45,226 nt of DNA from Catenulisporales bacterium (GTDB taxonomy: Bacteria; Actinomycetota; Actinomycetes; Streptomycetales; Catenulisporaceae). Under the pieces are notes generated by a model. That model was not told where the DNA came from and searched no databases. It worked only from the letters and a program-made list of their open reading frames with translations. This document shows positions 7,036-19,554 of this stretch, one piece after another. The stretch is from assembly GCA_019510485.1 (NCBI GenBank), contig JAEKKI010000133.1, forward strand, positions 1-45,226, read 5' to 3'. Each line of letters opens with the position of its first letter. Positions within the stretch are counted from its first letter, which is position 1. The position numbers and the translations under genes are program-made.

Positions 7036-7878
7036 TCAGTCAAAACCCGGATCTTCGATGTCGATCTCCTGGCCCTCGGCGGCCAGAGCCTCCTTCACGG
7101 CGCGGAAGGCGATCGACGAGGAGTAGCCCTTGCGCGCCAGCATCGCGACCAAGCGCCGGGTGCGGACTTGCGGGTCCAGGCCGCGTGTGGCGCGCAGGCG
7201 CGAGTCGACGAGGCGGCGCGCGGTCTCGGCCTCCTGGTCCTCGTCGAGCGTGGACAGCGCCTCGGCGGCGGTGTCGTCGTCGATGCCGCGGCGGCGCAGC
7301 TCGTAGCTCAGGGCGCGTTTGGCCAGCCCGCGCTCCGAATGCCGGGAGCGGACGAAGGTCTCGGCGTAGCCGGCGTCGTCCAGGAGGTGCAGCTCCTCGA
7401 ACCGGTCGAGCACCGCCTCGGCGATGTCGTCCGGGATCTCCTTCTTGCGGAGCCGGTCGGCGAGCTGGGAGCGGGTCTGCATCTGCCGGCCGAGGTGGTA
7501 GAGCAGGATGTTCTTCGCGCGCTGCTCGAGCTTCTCGCGCGACGGCGGCGGCTTGGGTTTGTCGGCCTCGGCCGGGTCGCGGTCCTTGCGGCGGGAGGAC
7601 CAGCTGTTGGACTGCTTCTTGGCAGCGTTCTTCTTTGCCGTGGCGCTTTTTTTGGCGGCGGCGTTCTGTTTTGGTGCGGCCTTCGCTGTCGGCCTACGCT
7701 CCGGCTCGACCAGAGCGGCCCAGCCGCTCGGCGCCGGCGCCGGATCTGGTGTCGGCTCCGGTGCCGACTCCGGCTCCGGCTCCGCCCAGGCCGGAGCGGC
7801 GGCCGGCTCATCGGCCGCCGCGGCGAACCAGTCGGGGCCGGCTCCCTCATCCCGGGCCCGGCCCCAACCGGCACTCAC
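7036..7878 (-). CDS. recX: RecX, regulator of RecA, with a long N-terminal extension
   Basis: The 280-residue protein starts at GTG 7876-7878, four nucleotides after the recA stop, and its GGAGGAG ribosome binding site lies inside the recA 3' end, so the two are translationally linked. The C-terminal 165 residues are the RecX fold (LYHLGRQMQTRSQLADRLRKK, LDDAGYAETFVRSR, LAKRALSYELRRRGI, RRLVAMLARKGYS), which binds RecA filaments and limits their activity. The first 110 or so residues are an extension absent from short RecX proteins: an acidic Pro/Ala/Glu segment (about 17-50), then a Lys/Ala-rich stretch (about 64-88) resembling histone H1-like or HU tails, which might bind DNA (inference). 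Confidence 0.93.
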   Translation of the reverse strand: MSAGWGRARDEGAGPDWFAAAADEPAAAPAWAEPEPESAPEPTPDPAPAPSGWAALVEPERRPTAKAAPKQNAAAKKSATAKKNAAKKQSNSWSSRRKDRDPAEADKPKPPPSREKLEQRAKNILLYHLGRQMQTRSQLADRLRKKEIPDDIAEAVLDRFEELHLLDDAGYAETFVRSRHSERGLAKRALSYELRRRGIDDDTAAEALSTLDEDQEAETARRLVDSRLRATRGLDPQVRTRRLVAMLARKGYSSSIAFRAVKEALAAEGQEIDIEDPGFD

Positions 7879-7882
7879 CTGC

Positions 7883-10123
<2,241 letters not shown>

Positions 10124-10169: not shown

Positions 10170-10192
10170 AAGGTAGAGGACGCCACTGACAA
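10170..10192 (-). promoter_or_regulatory. PafBC-dependent (RecA-NDp) promoter of recA
   Basis: On the minus strand TTGTCAGTG (10184-10192) is followed by exactly 8 nt and TACCTT (10170-10175). This is a perfect match to the published RecA-NDp/PafBC consensus TTGTCRGTG-N8-TANNNT, which drives LexA-independent DNA damage induction in actinobacteria. The leader to the recA start codon is about 40 nt. I saw no palindromic LexA box in this intergenic region. Confidence 0.9.
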
Positions 10193-11808: not shown

Positions 11809-11833
11809 CGTCCCTGACCGCATGGGATCAAGT

Positions 11834-11856
11834 TTGTCAGACCCCCGGGGCACTAT
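11834..11856 (+). promoter_or_regulatory. Possible PafBC-like promoter of lhr
   Basis: TTGTCAGAC (11834-11842), 8 nt, then CACTAT (11851-11856) resembles the damage promoter TTGTCRGTG-N8-TANNNT with three mismatches. The -10-like box ends 7 nt before ATG 11864, the spacing of a leaderless transcript. The correct 8-nt spacing and the DNA repair role of the gene favour the call, but the mismatches make it tentative. Confidence 0.35.
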
Positions 11857-11863
11857 GGACGGT

Positions 11864-14800
11864 ATGAGTACCTCGGCAGCTTTGGATCACTTCCACCCGG
11901 CCACCAAGGCCTGGTTCACGGCTGCCTTCGCCGACCCCACCAGCGCCCAGGCCGGCGCCTGGAGCGCGGTCGCGGCGGAGCAGAACGCGCTGGTCGTGGC
12001 CCCGACCGGCTCGGGCAAGACGCTGGCGGCGTTCCTGGCCGCCCTGGACCGCCTGGCCTTCGGGCCGCCGCCGGCCGAGCCCAAGCGGCGCTGCCGGGTC
12101 GTGTACGTCTCGCCGCTGAAGGCGCTGGCCGTGGACGTCGAGCGCAACCTGCGCGCGCCGCTGGCCGGGCTGAAGCAGGCCGCGGCGCGCCTGGGCCTGC
12201 CCGAGCCGGACGTCGAGATCGCGGTGCGCTCCGGCGACACCCCGGCCGACCAGCGCCGCAAGTTCATGACCAAGCCGGCGGACATCTTGATCACCACGCC
12301 GGAGTCGTTGTTCTTGATCCTCACCTCGGCGGCGCGCGAGTCGCTGCGCGCGGTGGAGACGGTGATCATCGACGAGGTCCACGCGGTGGCCGGGACCAAG
12401 CGGGGCTCGCACCTGGCGGTGTCGCTGGAGCGGCTGGACGCGCTGCTGGAGCGGCCGGCGCGGCGGATCGGCCTGTCGGCGACGGTGCGGCCGGCCGAGA
12501 CGGTCGCGCAGTTCCTGGGCGGGCCGCATCCCGTGAAGGTCGTGGCGCCGAAGATCGTGAAGGCCTTCGACATCAAGGTGTCGGTGCCGGTCGAGGACAT
12601 GGCCGCGCTGGACTCGGACGACGGCGAGCGGGCGGCCGCCGACCAGGCCGGGCGGCGTACGGCCTCGGTGTGGCCGCATGTCGAGGCGGCGGTGGCCGAT
12701 CTGATCGAGAAGCACCGCTCGACCATCGTGTTCACCAACTCCCGGCGGCTGGCCGAGCGGCTGACCGGCAAGCTGAACGAGGCGCACTGGGAGCGGGTCA
12801 CCGGCGAGGTCCTGCAGGAGCCGTTGAGCACGGCCGAAATCATGGCGCAGGCCGGGTCGGTGGCCGGGGCGCCGCCGGTGCTGGCCCGCGCGCACCACGG
12901 CTCGGTCTCCAAGGAGCAGCGGGCCGACATCGAGGAGGCGCTGAAGGCCGGGAACCTGCCGGCCGTGGTCGCCACGTCGAGTCTGGAGTTGGGCATCGAC
13001 ATGGGCGCCGTGGATCTGGTGGTGCAAGTCGAGTCGCCGCCGTCGGTGGCCGCCGGGCTGCAACGTGTCGGCCGGGCCGGGCACCAGGTGGGCGCCGTTT
13101 CACGCGGCGTCATCTTCCCCAAGTACCGGGGCGACCTGGTGCAGTCGGCGGTGGTGGCCGAGCGGATGGTCTCGGGCTCCATCGAGGCGCTGAAGGTGGT
13201 GCGCAACCCGCTGGACGTGCTGGCGCAGCAGATCATCGCGATGGTCGCGGTCGAGGACTGGCGGGCCGAGGACCTCATAGCCCTGATCCGCCGGGCGATG
13301 CCGTTCGCCGCGCTGCCGGACTCGGCGTACGAATCAGTGCTCGACCTGCTGTCCGGCCGCTATCCGTCGGACGAGTTCGCCGAGCTGAAGCCGCGCATCG
13401 TCTGGGACCGCGTCGAGGGCAAGCTGTCGGCGCGTCCCGGCGCGCAGCGGCTGGCGGTGACCTCCGGCGGCACCATCCCGGACCGCGGCTATTTCGGGGT
13501 CTTCCTGGCCGGGGCCGAGGCCGGTGCCAAGCGGGTCGGCGAGCTGGACGAGGAGATGGTCTACGAGTCGCGGGTCGGCGACGTGTTCACCCTGGGCTCG
13601 TCGTCCTGGCGGATCGAGGACATCACCCACGACCGCGTCCTCGTCTCCCCGGCTCCCGGCCTGCCCGGCAAGCTGCCGTTCTGGCACGGCGACGCGCTCG
13701 GCCGGCCGCTGGAGCTGGGCCGGGCGCTCGGCGGCTTCCTGCGCGAGATGGGCAAGACCGACGAGCCCACCGCCAAGGCGCGGCTTCAGGAGTCGGGGCT
13801 CGACGAGTGGGCCGCCGACAACCTGTTGTCTTATCTGCGGGAGCAGAAGCAGGCCACCGGCCGGGTGCCGGACGACCGCACCATCGTGGTCGAGCGGACC
13901 CGCGACGAGCTCGGCGACTGGAAGGTGCTGATCCACTCCCCGTTCGGGGCGCAGGTGCACGCGCCGTGGGCGCTGGCCATCGGCACCCGGCTGCGCGAGC
14001 ATTACGGCCTGGACGCGCAGGTGATGCACGCCGACGACGGCATCGTGCTGCGGCTGCCGGACACCGACGCCGCCGACCCGACCACCGAGTCGCTGGGGCT
14101 GCTGTTCGGTTCGGACGAGATCGAGGAGATCGTCACCGGGGAGATCGGCGGCTCGGCGCTGTTCGCCTCCCGGTTCCGGGAGTGCGCCGGGCGTGCGCTG
14201 CTGCTGCCGCGCACGCGCCCCGGCAAGCGCACGCCGCTGTGGCAGCAGCGGCAGCGCTCGGCGCAGCTGCTGGCGGTGGCGGCCCGGCACGCGAGCTTCC
14301 CGATCGTGCTGGAGGCCGTGCGCGAGGTGCTGCAGGACGTGTACGACGTGCCGGGGCTGATCGAGCTGTGCCGGGACATCGAGGCGCGCAAGGTGCGGAT
14401 CGTCGAGGTGGAGACCGCGCAGCCCTCGCCGTTCGCGCGCTCGCTGCTGTTCGGCTACATCGCGCAGTTCATGTACGAGGGCGACTCGCCGCTGGCCGAG
14501 CGCCGGGCCGCCGCGCTGTCGCTGGACCCGGCGCTGCTGGCCGAGCTGCTGGGGCAGACCGGGCTGCGGGATCTGCTGGATCCGGACATCCTGTTGGCGC
14601 TGGAGGAGGAGCTCCAATACCTGACGCCGACGCGGCGCGCCCGGGACGCCGAGGACGCCGCCGACCTGCTGCGTCTGCTCGGTCCGCTGTCCACCGCGGA
14701 GGCCGCGGCGCGCGGGATCGAGGCGGCGTGGCTGGTGGACCTGGAGGGCGCGCGCCGGGTCATCAGGGTGCGGATGGCCGGCGAGGAGCGCTGGGCCGCG

Positions 14801-16573
14801 ATCGAGGACGCGGGGCGGTTGCAGGACGCGTTGGGCGTGCCGCTGCCGGTGGGGATCCCGGAGGCGTTCACGGCGGTGGTGGCCGATCCGCTCGGTGATC
14901 TGGTGGCGCGCTACGCCCGCACGCACGGGCCGTTCAACGCCATCGAACCGGCGGCCCGGTTCGGGATCCCGGCTTCTTCGGTGATCGCGGCGCTGGAGCG
15001 GCTGGCGGCTGCCGGGCGGGTGCTGTCCGGCGAGTTCCGCCCGGGCGGCAGCGGCACCGAGTGGTGCGACGCCGAGGTGCTGCGCCGGGTGCGCCGCCGC
15101 ACGATGGCGGCGCTGCGCAAGGAGGCCGAGCCGGTCCCTCCGCGCTCTCTGGCCATGCTCCTCCCGGCCTGGCAGTCGGTGGGCCGGGCGGCCGCGTCGC
15201 CTTTGCGCGGCGTGGACGGCGTGCTCCGGGTGGTGGAGCAGTTGGCCGGCGCCGTGGTCCCGGCCTCTGCGCTGGAGCGGCTGATCCTGCCGGCCCGGGT
15301 CGCGGACTACTCGCCGACGATGCTGGACGAGCTGACGTCCTCCGGCGAGGTGGTGTGGGCCGGGGCGGGCTCGCTGGCCGGCGACGACGGCTGGGTGACG
15401 TTGTGTCCGGCGGAACTGGCGCCGCTGCTGCTGCCGGAGCCGTCGGAGGCACTGGATCTGGGACCGGTGCATCAGGCGATCCTTTCGTCACTCGACGAGG
15501 ACGCGGCGTTGTTCCTGCGCGGGATCGTGGCGCGGGTCGGAGACGAGCATTCGTCCGCTGATGTCCTGTCAGGGCTCTGGGATCTGCTGTGGGCCGGCTA
15601 CGTCACCAACGACACACTGGCGCCGCTGCGCGGGCTGTTGGTCTCGGGCAAGAGCGCGCACAAGACCCGACGGCCGACACCGCGCGGCCGCTACGCGCGG
15701 CTCGGCGTGTCGGGGGCGTCGGCGTCGGCGTCGGCGTCGGCGAACCAGAACGCTCAGGCCGCGATCAGCCCGTCAGCGGCCGGCCGCTGGTCCCGCCTGG
15801 CCCCCCGCCTCGCCGACCCGACCCGCCGCGCCCATGTGCTCGGCGAGGTGCTGCTGGACCGGTACGGCGTGGTGACCCGCGGATCCGTGATGAGCGAACG
15901 GATCCCGGGCGGCTACGCCGGGGTGTACTCGGTGCTGTCGGCGTACGAGGAGGCCGGCCGGGCCCGGCGCGGCTACTTCGTCGAGGGCCTGGGCGCCGCC
16001 CAGTTCGCCGCCGACGGCGCGGTGGACCGGCTGCGCTCGCTGGCGGCCGCCCTGGAGGCGTTGGAGGCGCGCGGGCAGGAGACGATCGGCGCTGGACTCG
16101 ACGAGAGCGTGCACAAGCTGCTGGGCGTCCCCCACGAGTACACGCCGCGGCGCCCGAAGAAGGACCCCGACCGCATCGGCGCCCTCGTCCTCGCCGCCAC
16201 CGACCCGGCCAACGCCTACGGCGCCGCCCTGCCCTGGCCGGCTCGCCCGGTCGGCGAGAACGGCGCCCCCGCCACCGGCCACAAGCCGGGCCGCAAGGCC
16301 GGCGCGCTGGTGGTCCTGGTCGACGGCGAGTTGGTCCTGTACGTCGAACGCGGCGGCCGGACACTGCTGTCCTGGACCGAGGACCCGGCCGTGTTGCAAC
16401 CGGCGGTGGACGCACTCGCCCTGACCGTACGCGACGGCTGGCTGGGCAAGCTGACGGTGTCGAAGACCGACGGCGAGGACGTGCTGTACGCGGGCCGCGA
16501 CTCGGCGCTGGCGCAGGCGCTGGCGGCGGCCGGGTTCCGGTCGACGCCTTCAGGACTACGGTTGCGGGGGTAG
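11864..16573 (+). CDS. lhr: Giant ATP-dependent helicase Lhr
   Basis: The predicted protein has 1569 residues from ATG 11864, the usual size of the large bacterial Lhr. Superfamily 2 helicase motifs are all present: Walker A APTGSGKT (46-53), TTPESLF, DEVH (170-173), GLSATVRP, and motif VI in QRVGRAGHQ. A winged-helix and Lhr-core region follows, then a long C-terminal part as in bacterial Lhr proteins. Lhr moves 3' to 5' on DNA and unwinds RNA-DNA hybrids, and is DNA damage inducible in mycobacteria (established knowledge). A Ser/Ala-rich linker lies around residues 1285-1300. The next gene starts 4 nt after the stop, so they are co-transcribed. Confidence 0.95.
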   Translation: MSTSAALDHFHPATKAWFTAAFADPTSAQAGAWSAVAAEQNALVVAPTGSGKTLAAFLAALDRLAFGPPPAEPKRRCRVVYVSPLKALAVDVERNLRAPLAGLKQAAARLGLPEPDVEIAVRSGDTPADQRRKFMTKPADILITTPESLFLILTSAARESLRAVETVIIDEVHAVAGTKRGSHLAVSLERLDALLERPARRIGLSATVRPAETVAQFLGGPHPVKVVAPKIVKAFDIKVSVPVEDMAALDSDDGERAAADQAGRRTASVWPHVEAAVADLIEKHRSTIVFTNSRRLAERLTGKLNEAHWERVTGEVLQEPLSTAEIMAQAGSVAGAPPVLARAHHGSVSKEQRADIEEALKAGNLPAVVATSSLELGIDMGAVDLVVQVESPPSVAAGLQRVGRAGHQVGAVSRGVIFPKYRGDLVQSAVVAERMVSGSIEALKVVRNPLDVLAQQIIAMVAVEDWRAEDLIALIRRAMPFAALPDSAYESVLDLLSGRYPSDEFAELKPRIVWDRVEGKLSARPGAQRLAVTSGGTIPDRGYFGVFLAGAEAGAKRVGELDEEMVYESRVGDVFTLGSSSWRIEDITHDRVLVSPAPGLPGKLPFWHGDALGRPLELGRALGGFLREMGKTDEPTAKARLQESGLDEWAADNLLSYLREQKQATGRVPDDRTIVVERTRDELGDWKVLIHSPFGAQVHAPWALAIGTRLREHYGLDAQVMHADDGIVLRLPDTDAADPTTESLGLLFGSDEIEEIVTGEIGGSALFASRFRECAGRALLLPRTRPGKRTPLWQQRQRSAQLLAVAARHASFPIVLEAVREVLQDVYDVPGLIELCRDIEARKVRIVEVETAQPSPFARSLLFGYIAQFMYEGDSPLAERRAAALSLDPALLAELLGQTGLRDLLDPDILLALEEELQYLTPTRRARDAEDAADLLRLLGPLSTAEAAARGIEAAWLVDLEGARRVIRVRMAGEERWAAIEDAGRLQDALGVPLPVGIPEAFTAVVADPLGDLVARYARTHGPFNAIEPAARFGIPASSVIAALERLAAAGRVLSGEFRPGGSGTEWCDAEVLRRVRRRTMAALRKEAEPVPPRSLAMLLPAWQSVGRAAASPLRGVDGVLRVVEQLAGAVVPASALERLILPARVADYSPTMLDELTSSGEVVWAGAGSLAGDDGWVTLCPAELAPLLLPEPSEALDLGPVHQAILSSLDEDAALFLRGIVARVGDEHSSADVLSGLWDLLWAGYVTNDTLAPLRGLLVSGKSAHKTRRPTPRGRYARLGVSGASASASASANQNAQAAISPSAAGRWSRLAPRLADPTRRAHVLGEVLLDRYGVVTRGSVMSERIPGGYAGVYSVLSAYEEAGRARRGYFVEGLGAAQFAADGAVDRLRSLAAALEALEARGQETIGAGLDESVHKLLGVPHEYTPRRPKKDPDRIGALVLAATDPANAYGAALPWPARPVGENGAPATGHKPGRKAGALVVLVDGELVLYVERGGRTLLSWTEDPAVLQPAVDALALTVRDGWLGKLTVSKTDGEDVLYAGRDSALAQALAAAGFRSTPSGLRLRG

Positions 16574-17759: not shown

Positions 17760-18290
17760 ACGATCGCGGATCACATCGCGATCACGCCCAAGGCCTGCGG
17801 CATACGCGCTGTGCGGCCCACCGAGCGCGCGACCGCCGGTCGCACCACGACCACACCCCAGGCGGCCGACTACCGAGCAGCGCACGCCTACGTCAGAGGT
17901 CATACTCGGCAACGACCGCGGGTCGCACCGCGATCACGCCCGAAGCGTGCGGCATACGGGGTGTGCGGCCCACCGAGCGCGCGATCGCCGGTCGCACCGC
18001 AACCACACCCGAGGCGGCCGACTACCGAGCAGCGCGCTCCTGCGTTCAGAGGTCGTCGGCAACGACCGCGGGTCACAGCGCCATCACGCCCGAAGCGTGC
18101 GGCATACGGGGTGTGCGGCCCACCGAGCGCACGGTCGCTGGTCACACGGCAACCACGCCCGAGGCGACCGACTACCGAGCAGCGCACGCCTACGTCAGAG
18201 GTCGTACTCGGCAACGACCGCGGGTCGCACCGCGATCCCGCCCAAAGCGTGCCGACCTACCGAGCGGCCTGCGTCCCTACTCGGAAACAC
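17760..18290. repeat. Tandem array of about 152-bp repeats, 3 full copies plus a deleted fourth
   Basis: Copies begin at 17760, 17912, 18062 and 18214 (periods 152, 150 and 152). Each starts with ACGAYCGCGG, contains GTGCGGCCCACCGAGCGC and GACTACCGAGCAGCGC, and ends CTCGGCA or similar. Copies 2 and 3 are the most alike; copy 1 differs more. Copy 4 lacks the middle and joins AAAGCGTGC to a GACCTACCGAGC-type end. Each unit is itself built of two related halves, both beginning near GGTCRCACNGC. Small hairpins recur, for example CGACC-GCG-GGTCG at copy 2 start and GCGACC-GCC-GGTCGC in copy 1. Two periods are not multiples of three and the frames shift between copies, so the array is probably non-coding. 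It fills the whole gap between the HEPN stop and the TSUP promoter. Confidence 0.9.
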
Positions 18291-18293
18291 CCC

Positions 18294-18824
18294 TCAGCTA
18301 GCCGCCTGGTCCCCCGAGCCGAGCGGCAACCCGTCCTGGAACGGCAACCCCAGCAGCTGCGCGACCACCCCGAGGTACACCTCGGCCTCGCGCGCGAGCT
18401 CCGCGGCCTCGGCGTCGGTGACCGCGTTCGGCAGTCCGGCCTGTGCCGCGGCCCGGCGGGTGGCGCCGGAGGCGAAGTACGCGGCCCAGTCGGCCAGCTC
18501 CGGGGCCTCGCGGTACAGCAGGTCCCAGACGCTGCGCGGGCGGCGCCGGGTCGGGGCGGCCGGCACGGCGCGCGCGGTGACCACGGCCGCCGAGGCGTGC
18601 AGTGCGGCCATGTGCGCGCCGCAGTAGCGGTCGTAGGGGTGCGAGGACGTGACGGCCTCTGCCAGTTCGTGCACGGCCTGGTCGAACAGGTCGCGGGCCG
18701 AGCGCGACGCCGGTCCCCGCCGGTGGCCGCCCGAGCCCAGCGGAGGCAGCGGCGGCGGGTGCGCCCGGGAACCGGCTATCGGTCCGGTGTCCGCGCTTTT
18801 GAGCATCTTCGTCGCTGCGGGCAT
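18294..18824 (-). CDS. SAV_6107-type HEPN domain protein
   Basis: The predicted 176-residue protein starts at ATG 18822-18824 (MPAATKMLK), chosen for its GGGGGAA ribosome binding site; in-frame ATG 18866 is an alternative. After a Pro/Gly-rich stretch (about 20-40) comes a helical HEPN domain with RYCGAH at 66-71, which fits the R-phi-x3-H active-site motif of HEPN ribonucleases. RPRSVWDLLYREAPELADWAAYF and the VTDAEA region recall the SAV_6107 family of Streptomyces and relatives. HEPN proteins are often RNases of toxin, antiphage or stress systems; activity here is inferred. A PafBC-like promoter precedes it and DUF6504 lies directly upstream on the same strand. Confidence 0.8.
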   Translation of the reverse strand: MPAATKMLKSADTGPIAGSRAHPPPLPPLGSGGHRRGPASRSARDLFDQAVHELAEAVTSSHPYDRYCGAHMAALHASAAVVTARAVPAAPTRRRPRSVWDLLYREAPELADWAAYFASGATRRAAAQAGLPNAVTDAEAAELAREAEVYLGVVAQLLGLPFQDGLPLGSGDQAAS

Positions 18825-18875
18825 GGTTCCCCCAATCACTGATGACATGTCGGACACTCGCAGCATGTCTCTTCC

Positions 18876-18910
18876 ACAGTGACAGGCCCCACTGACAAAA
18901 AACACGTGTT
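18876..18910 (-). promoter_or_regulatory. Probable damage-type promoter of the HEPN gene
   Basis: On the minus strand TTGTCAGTG (18890-18898), 8 nt and CACTGT (18876-18881) match the PafBC/RecA-NDp consensus except for the first base of the -10. The -35-like nonamer is identical to that of recA in this window. Immediately upstream lies the perfect 10-bp palindrome AACACGTGTT (18901-18910), which partly resembles a LexA half-site pair (AAC-ACGT-GTT). The leader to ATG 18824 is about 45 nt. Confidence 0.65.
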
Positions 18911-19009
18911 CACGCGCTGAAATCCCCATGAACCGCTCCGATGTCAGCCGGTGGCCGGGTCCTGGTCAGTTCGCGGTCGTCTCACGGTCAGCTCACCGCC
19001 GGCTCGCGA

Positions 19010-19417
19010 TTAGTTCTCCGGGAACTTCAGCACCCGGCCCACCTGTCGCGGCAGCGGGCTCAGCGACTCGGCGACCAGCAGCCAGCCGCCGCCGGTGACG
19101 TCGTGGCAGAGCTGGAACACCTCGACCTCGCCGTCCCGCCCGACACTGGCGCGCACGCTCCACAGCTCGCGCTCCACCTCCCGGTCCCGGCCGAAGACCA
19201 GCGTCTCGAAAGTGCCCAGACGGCGGTCGGTACGCAGCAGCACGGAAGGGATCTCACCGCCGTCCGCACCGACCTGGATCCAGTGCGAAAGGACCTGACG
19301 CACGCGGTACAGCTTGCCGCGCCAGATGAAATGCGCCGGCTCACCGTGCCGTCGCAACACGTCGATCTGCTCGTCGTCCTCGGTGCTCACAGCGGCACCC
19401 ATCCCATTCGCACTCAT
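19010..19417 (-). CDS. DUF6504 family protein
   Basis: The predicted 135-residue protein starts at ATG 19415-19417 with a GGAGG site 6 nt before it. The core reads HFIWRGKLYRVRQVL, then RELWSVRA, VFQLCHDVTGGGWLL and a C-terminal LPRQVGRVLKFPEN, as in DUF6504. As I recall, this domain occurs at the C-terminus of, or beside, Y-family (ImuB-like) polymerases in actinobacteria, which suggests a link to translesion synthesis; no polymerase gene is present here. A LexA-type box lies 120 bp upstream. The HEPN gene follows 185 bp downstream with its own promoter. Confidence 0.8.
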   Translation of the reverse strand: MSANGMGAAVSTEDDEQIDVLRRHGEPAHFIWRGKLYRVRQVLSHWIQVGADGGEIPSVLLRTDRRLGTFETLVFGRDREVERELWSVRASVGRDGEVEVFQLCHDVTGGGWLLVAESLSPLPRQVGRVLKFPEN

Positions 19418-19536
19418 CGCAGCCTCCATAACCGCCGCCCCTAGTGTCCGAACGCCCGGACCGACCACGGCGGACCACGGGCTTCCCCTCCCGCGAACCG
19501 CCGGCGGGGGCGGCCGATCCGGGCGTCGGACCCATC

Positions 19537-19554
19537 GTCGAATATTTGTTCGAC
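19537..19554. promoter_or_regulatory. LexA (SOS) box
   Basis: GTCGAATATTTGTTCGAC is an 18-bp near-palindrome that matches the actinobacterial SOS consensus TCGAAC-N4-GTTCGA at every position but one (T for C at the sixth). It sits 120 bp upstream of the DUF6504 start. The reductase relic on the other side begins 107 bp away. Confidence 0.8.

Follow-up and report, generated by a model that had tools for sequence, protein, structure and literature searches.

What is the role of a DUF6504 gene (PF20114) that stands immediately upstream of a HEPN_SAV_6107 gene (PF18726), with a putative DNA-damage element ahead of each and no polymerase gene alongside? Profile searches reveal this pair on the minus strand of a 45,226-base contig, which in its entirety is the window analysed here. 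The contig belongs to an incomplete MAG of the genus Catenulispora (5.53 Mb, 77% complete). The sequence-only reading of the locus proposed a new type of damage response, in which an RNase-like HEPN protein is controlled together with a domain linked to translesion polymerases.

Both family assignments exceed the curated cut-offs: the HEPN protein scores 96.5 bits against PF18726 (cut-off 27.2) and the DUF6504 protein 43 bits against PF20114 (cut-off 24.2). NCBIfam has a match for neither. Judged by eye, the most likely HEPN start is the ATG at 18824, in the ribosome-binding-site-like context GGGGGAacc-ATG, and not 18929. The most likely DUF6504 start is 19417, in the context GGAGGctgcg-ATG, where GGAGG resembles a ribosome-binding site.

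Among nine Catenulispora genomes, profile searches detected HEPN in all nine and DUF6504 in eight; in the remaining genome the contig starts inside the HEPN gene. The two genes are adjacent in 8 of the 8 genomes having both, with a GT2 gene before the pair and an Lhr helicase gene after it wherever the contig extends that far. The order of MTHFR, GNAT and TauE genes is shared by most of these loci, and TauE was not found at two of them (L036 and L042). HEPN was not found in four Catenulisporaceae genomes of two other genera, in which DUF6504 gave one match, below the cut-off.

Table 1. Positions of the gene pair, its putative control elements and neighbouring features in the window
Feature	Position	Strand	Remark
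recX	7036..7878		after recA
recA	7886..10120	-	split by intein
PafBC motif	10170..10192	-	perfect; directly before recA
Lhr-type helicase	11822..16573	+	large; between recA and HEPN gene
Imperfect GC-rich repeats	17760..18240		intergenic, downstream of HEPN; by eye
HEPN_SAV_6107 CDS, 176 aa	18294..18824	-	PF18726, E 1.4e-27
R124 codon	18453..18455	-	aligns with Arg of canonical Rx4-6H site; His missing
RYCGAH codons (R66-H71, numbered from 18824)	18612..18629	-	in helix 2, away from the canonical HEPN active site
PafBC/RecA-independent-type promoter of HEPN, TTGTCAGTG-N8-CACTGT	18876..18898	-	11/12; ends ~50 nt before likely start
DUF6504 CDS, standalone ImuB-C-like beta domain	19010..19417	-	PF20114, E 5.8e-11
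LexA box TCGAACAAATATTCGA, read on minus strand	19538..19553	-	11/12 bases; ~120 nt before DUF6504 start

Conservation of the putative control elements

The LexA box differs at one position from TCGAACnnnnGTTCGA and is the sole one-mismatch site in the window. At up to two mismatches the window contains three matches, with 1.84 expected, and from the window alone the box is no more than suggestive; conservation decides. We tested conservation because, within the window, the statistical case is weak for the LexA box, if stronger for the PafBC element. A box matching 11 of 12 positions is present in the window and at the 8 other Catenulispora loci checked. At 62 representative loci, hand-picked at roughly one or a few for each genus rather than comprising all carriers, we then took the best match in the 350 nt preceding the lead domain, with 1401 other windows from the same loci as background. 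Matches of at least 11/12 precede the lead gene at 56 of these 62 chosen loci, compared with 1 of the 1401 background windows, and chance occurrence of the boxes is rejected on this ratio. The boxes are found at 31 of 32 loci with DUF6504 and HEPN, 18 of 22 with HEPN only, and 7 of 8 with DUF6504 only. The near-perfect LexA box proposed from the window is thus borne out, and its conservation is what would be expected of putative SOS regulon members.

The PafBC-type element that was proposed as the HEPN gene's own promoter also withstands comparison. It has one mismatch to the consensus tTGTCRgtg-N8-TAnnnT, which was taken from PMC5656591. Five matches with up to two mismatches occur in the window (0.98 expected), and none of 100 shuffles reaches as many. 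An 11/12 element is likewise present at the 8 Catenulispora loci that share the LexA box. Among the representative loci, matches of at least 11/12 occur at 14 of 62, against 3 of 1401 in the background. In a redundant set of 235 HEPN loci that is rich in Streptomyces, such elements are found at 94 of 137 loci without an adjacent DUF6504 gene and at 15 of 98 with one.

The perfect PafBC motif before recA in the same window has a counterpart before recA in another Catenulispora genome (G004); the 320 nt examined before recA contain no LexA-like site that matches 9 or more of the 12 positions. A slightly relaxed pattern gives 17 matches in genome G000, compared with 0 in the reversed control, and 14 compared with 3 in G004, with many of these matches not clearly promoters. 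The PafBC motif is credible in the genus because of the perfect copy at recA and the excess over reversed controls, and its position upstream of HEPN makes that gene a candidate member of a PafBC regulon.

Streptomyces HEPN genes with 11/12 PafBC-type promoters (for example, at L045, L046, L047 and L052) hint at a PafBC regulon in that genus as well. An initial motif search in a study of S. venezuelae suggested that this species does not conserve the mycobacterial (smegmatis) PafBC motif (PMC9380542). Contrary to that initial search, the conserved PafBC-type promoters suggest that the second damage response reaches both Streptomyces and Catenulispora.

Gene order and polymerases at related loci

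In Methylovirgula, PF20114 covers residues 431 to 504 of the 507-residue ImuB protein (29.9 bits, over the cut-off). This ImuB is annotated as a "DUF6504 family protein" and is encoded between ImuA and an error-prone polymerase. Agrobacterium ImuB scores 17.7 bits, below the cut-off, and PF20114 has no match in the ImuB proteins of Paraburkholderia and Kitasatospora or in the actinobacterial ImuBs of L257, L134 and L135. With hhalign, DUF6504 reaches 72% against proteobacterial ImuB C-termini (0.1% for the N-terminal control) and an insignificant 0.3% against actinobacterial ImuB C-termini. The AF2 model of the DUF6504 protein has eight strands (mean pLDDT 66) and no significant PDB match; neither Foldseek with this model nor the DUF6504 profile run against PDB sequences returned anything credible. 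On the profile evidence, DUF6504 is the ImuB-C family, occurring as a standalone domain. Surveys of polymerases from 2019 and 2026 report standalone ImuB-C domains with DnaE2 or PolY, name DnaE2-[ImuB-C] systems as restricted to Actinobacteria, and present models in which ImuB-C forms a beta-barrel that sits on the DnaE2 PHP domain (PMC6511836, PMC12926913). An adjacent imuB annotation was absent at three of the plasmid dnaE2 regions that we fetched (L264, L265 and L267).

HEPN_SAV_6107 is present in 210 of 345 sampled Actinomycetes genomes, representing 84 of 115 genera, and in 34 of 296 genomes of a phylum-wide sample, 26 of them over the cut-off. DUF6504 is found in 144 of the 345 Actinomycetes genomes (143 over the cut-off). 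About 60 loci were fetched from hand-picked genomes of many families, and locus counts rest on HMM searches, as ORF clustering missed some HEPN and DUF6504 genes. At all 30 fetched loci from other genera that carry both genes, the gene immediately before HEPN, in the same orientation, is DUF6504; the two domain matches are separated by -2 to 409 nt, and at 28 of the 30 a DnaE gene occurs within ~5 kb. The expectation that the two genes co-occur across Actinomycetes with conserved boxes is therefore supported, as is the proposed tie between DUF6504 and translesion polymerases, to which the Methylovirgula ImuB C-terminus also points.

The recurring order in the HMM annotation is YbaK< DUF6504> HEPN> DnaE> MTase> DinB> DUF3040>, together with partial versions of it. 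The fullest locus encodes DUF6504, HEPN, DnaE2, a methyltransferase, DinB and DUF3040. Most Streptomyces loci read HEPN>MTase>DUF3040>, Streptomyces having HEPN but no PF20114 match, and Catenulispora loci read DUF6504>HEPN>. HEPN is kept without MTase, DUF3040 or a locus polymerase at loci that we take to be from Streptosporangiaceae. In family f84, whose genomes are 1.2 to 2.2 Mb, three loci have DUF6504>DnaE>DinB without HEPN. HEPN-DnaE loci in MAGs labelled Spirochaetaceae (L224) and Bifidobacterium breve (L234), seen among the best 80 of 565 confirmed loci, are probably mis-binned actinobacterial contigs.

The DnaE genes of HEPN loci belong to a distinct group. In a tree of 35 DnaE proteins they fall with the iPolY-linked DnaE2 of Streptomyces, classed as DnaE2B in PMC12926913, and separately from both DnaE1 and ImuA/ImuB-linked DnaE2; the splits have support of 100/100, and the long branches to DnaE1 call for caution. 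A DnaE2B gene is absent from the locus in the window and from those of Catenulispora relatives that reach far enough. Because DnaE2B is missing here and present at the loci of other families, the pair appears to be a remnant and not a member of a full DnaE2B-[ImuB-C] system. The earlier observation that no polymerase is left is accurate for the locus but not for the genus, since a second DnaE gene, next to an ImuB-like gene at a different place in the genome, occurs in each of three Catenulispora genomes tested. In G004 this is an imuA'-imuB-dnaE2 operon with an 11/12 LexA box before ImuA'. The MAG that contains the window, 77% complete, yielded a single DnaE gene and a single Y-family gene.

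Among 32 HEPN genomes selected for a genome-wide check, a second DnaE was missing from G015, G377 and G000, the last of which is incomplete. G015 (98% complete) carries DUF6504-HEPN with an 11/12 box, one DnaE and no Y-family gene. We rejected an obligate DnaE2 subunit as the role of HEPN because the gene persists without a locus polymerase (in Catenulispora, Streptomyces and Streptosporangiaceae) and in the single-DnaE genomes G015 and G377.

Possible roles of the HEPN protein

We favour, at a probability of roughly 0.6, the reading that the pair is a DNA-damage-inducible leftover of an ancestral actinobacterial translesion operon and that the HEPN protein is a non-enzymatic accessory. Besides the boxes, the gene order and the polymerases at related loci, this reading draws on the ciprofloxacin response of cg2381, probably the HEPN orthologue of C. 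glutamicum (below). We infer the following mechanism. The ancestral operon would have encoded DUF6504, HEPN, DnaE2B, a methyltransferase, DinB and DUF3040, in that order. After damage, LexA would be cleaved and PafBC would presumably activate transcription. The DUF6504 beta domain would dock on a DnaE-type polymerase at its PHP domain, in the manner modelled for ImuB-C and DnaE2. With its four-helix fold and no catalytic His, the HEPN protein might act as a non-enzymatic adaptor or regulator of the translesion machinery. In Catenulispora, the likely client would be either DinB or the DnaE2 that the separate imuA'-imuB-dnaE2 operon encodes.

A broader proposal, which we hold tentatively and at somewhat under even odds, is that HEPN_SAV_6107 is a widespread SOS component of translesion synthesis in Actinobacteria that has so far gone unrecognised. 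It would be a catalytically dead mutasome adaptor or regulator that serves both DnaE2B with standalone ImuB-C and ImuA'-ImuB-DnaE2, and that survives loss of the locus polymerase. HEPN heads ImuA'>ImuB>DnaE2 at L114, L134, L135 and L136, with DUF6504 beside HEPN at none of these; the HEPN matches at L136 and at L256 (below) come from separate searches and not from the locus annotation. Among Actinobacteria are antibiotic producers and major pathogens whose induced mutagenesis depends on DnaE2 mutasomes. The HEPN gene is conserved, carries SOS boxes, often lies inside mutasome operons and has no function assigned in the papers found; it could be a missing part that lends itself to direct testing. 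One reason for its being overlooked may be that genus g7, which is Mycobacterium-like by inferred name, has no significant HEPN match.

HEPN could instead be an SOS-induced brake on replication or division that targets the replisome, RecA or the division machinery and is merely encoded beside mutasome genes. This is the strongest alternative, and we consider it unlikely at around one chance in a few. It would explain why HEPN is kept under LexA-type and PafBC-type elements where locus polymerases are gone, and why it is kept in G015. It also fits the position of HEPN before DUF3040-mraZ at four loci of family f5 (L144, L149, L150 and L164). A similar arrangement occurs at the Corynebacterium-like locus L256, where HEPN is two genes before mraZ with DUF3040 between them, and two 10/12 LexA boxes are situated at or just before the HEPN start. 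The C. glutamicum genome has a PF18726 match, and its mraZ is cg2378 (PMC5055667). By gene order, the C. glutamicum HEPN orthologue is probably cg2381, a LexA-regulon gene (citing Jochmann 2009) with an M value of 3.86 after ciprofloxacin, which is listed second after the division suppressor divS among genes of unknown function (PMC5055667). Against a brake stands the association with polymerases: DnaE and/or DinB are within ~5 kb of HEPN at 37 of 51 loci among L108 to L167 (L136 included), four of them as imuA'-imuB-dnaE2, and two or more DnaE genes are present in 29 of the 32 chosen genomes, with one or more Y-family genes in 31.

A damage-induced RNase that uses R66 and H71 of the RYCGAH sequence and is partnered with DUF6504, as the sequence-only reading proposed, is considerably more doubtful than a brake. 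The AF2 model of the HEPN protein (mean pLDDT 83) has four helices, at residues 41-59, 63-85, 99-128 (in three pieces) and 137-158. Its nearest solved fold is indeed a HEPN protein, since the best Foldseek match in the PDB is the archaeal HEPN 2HSB (E 0.09, probability 1.00, TM 0.45 by query length), which is also the top profile match by sequence (E 0.015). In this weak alignment, read by eye, R66 and H71 are on helix 2 opposite an Arg and a Tyr, and R124 falls on the Arg taken as that of the canonical site of 2HSB; no His follows R124 and none matches the His of the 2HSB loop. By the same weak alignment, the canonical Rx4-6H, expected at the end of helix 3 or the start of the loop to helix 4, is reduced to Arg124.

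Conservation gives a mixed picture. Among 86 sequences under 80% identity, drawn from 234, R66 is kept in 80 and H71 in 69 (Tyr in 14, Gln in 3), so that each residue on its own is well conserved; both together are retained in 65. By comparison, the position of R124 is Arg in 84 of 86. A Corynebacterium-like member lacks equivalents of both Arg66 and His71 by eye, and no antitoxin family was identified among recurrent neighbours. The HEPN survey answers "No" to Rx4-6H for the SAV_6107 family (PMC3710099). R66/H71 was therefore rejected as a canonical HEPN active site, and catalysis by HEPN_SAV_6107 appears unlikely because these residues are predicted to lie in helix 2, Tyr substitutions occur, the canonical His is missing and the survey lists no Rx4-6H. 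No relative of the HEPN protein turned up among the viral contigs scanned.

That the two are unrelated small genes with fortuitous boxes is highly improbable, since the LexA-like site is weakly significant within the window alone but adjacency and boxes are conserved across families.

Relation to known systems

The closest described counterpart of the leftover operon that we favour is DnaE2B-[ImuB-C](-PolY-RecA) of Actinobacteria, published in 2026 (PMC12926913), in which a standalone ImuB-C is linked to DnaE2B, in some cases together with a Y-family polymerase, and with whose DnaE2B the HEPN-locus DnaE groups. Unlike that system, the Catenulispora locus has neither DnaE2 nor DinB, with imuA'-imuB-dnaE2 elsewhere as in G004. 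The word "HEPN" has no occurrence in the main text of PMC12926913. The ImuA'-ImuB-DnaE2 mutasome is likewise LexA-controlled, its ImuB carries ImuB-C, and HEPN heads some of its operons; in the window, however, ImuB-C is a separate gene, HEPN is an additional one, and no ImuA/ImuB core lies alongside. The lexA-imuB-C-polY operon of Geobacter also has a standalone ImuB-C under damage control, but HEPN and DnaE2 do not figure in its description (PMC6511836). The HEPN-M (SAV_6107) family of PMC3710099 corresponds in family match, actinobacterial distribution and the lack of a conserved Rx4-6H, and its table row there gives no operon context; the present analysis adds SOS control and the link to translesion synthesis. 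In the literature searched, which is thin on subscription papers, we found no description of a link between HEPN and mutasomes. The suggestion of a new damage response consequently holds in part: the DnaE2B-ImuB-C portion is known, and the HEPN component and its regulation appear to be new.

The contig is rich in DNA-repair genes. An intein that carries a LAGLIDADG endonuclease domain splits the recA gene (Pfam RecA and LAGLIDADG_2, with Intein_splicing below the cut-off), and recX comes after recA. The Lhr-type helicase gene and the GC-rich repeats lie between recA and the HEPN gene.
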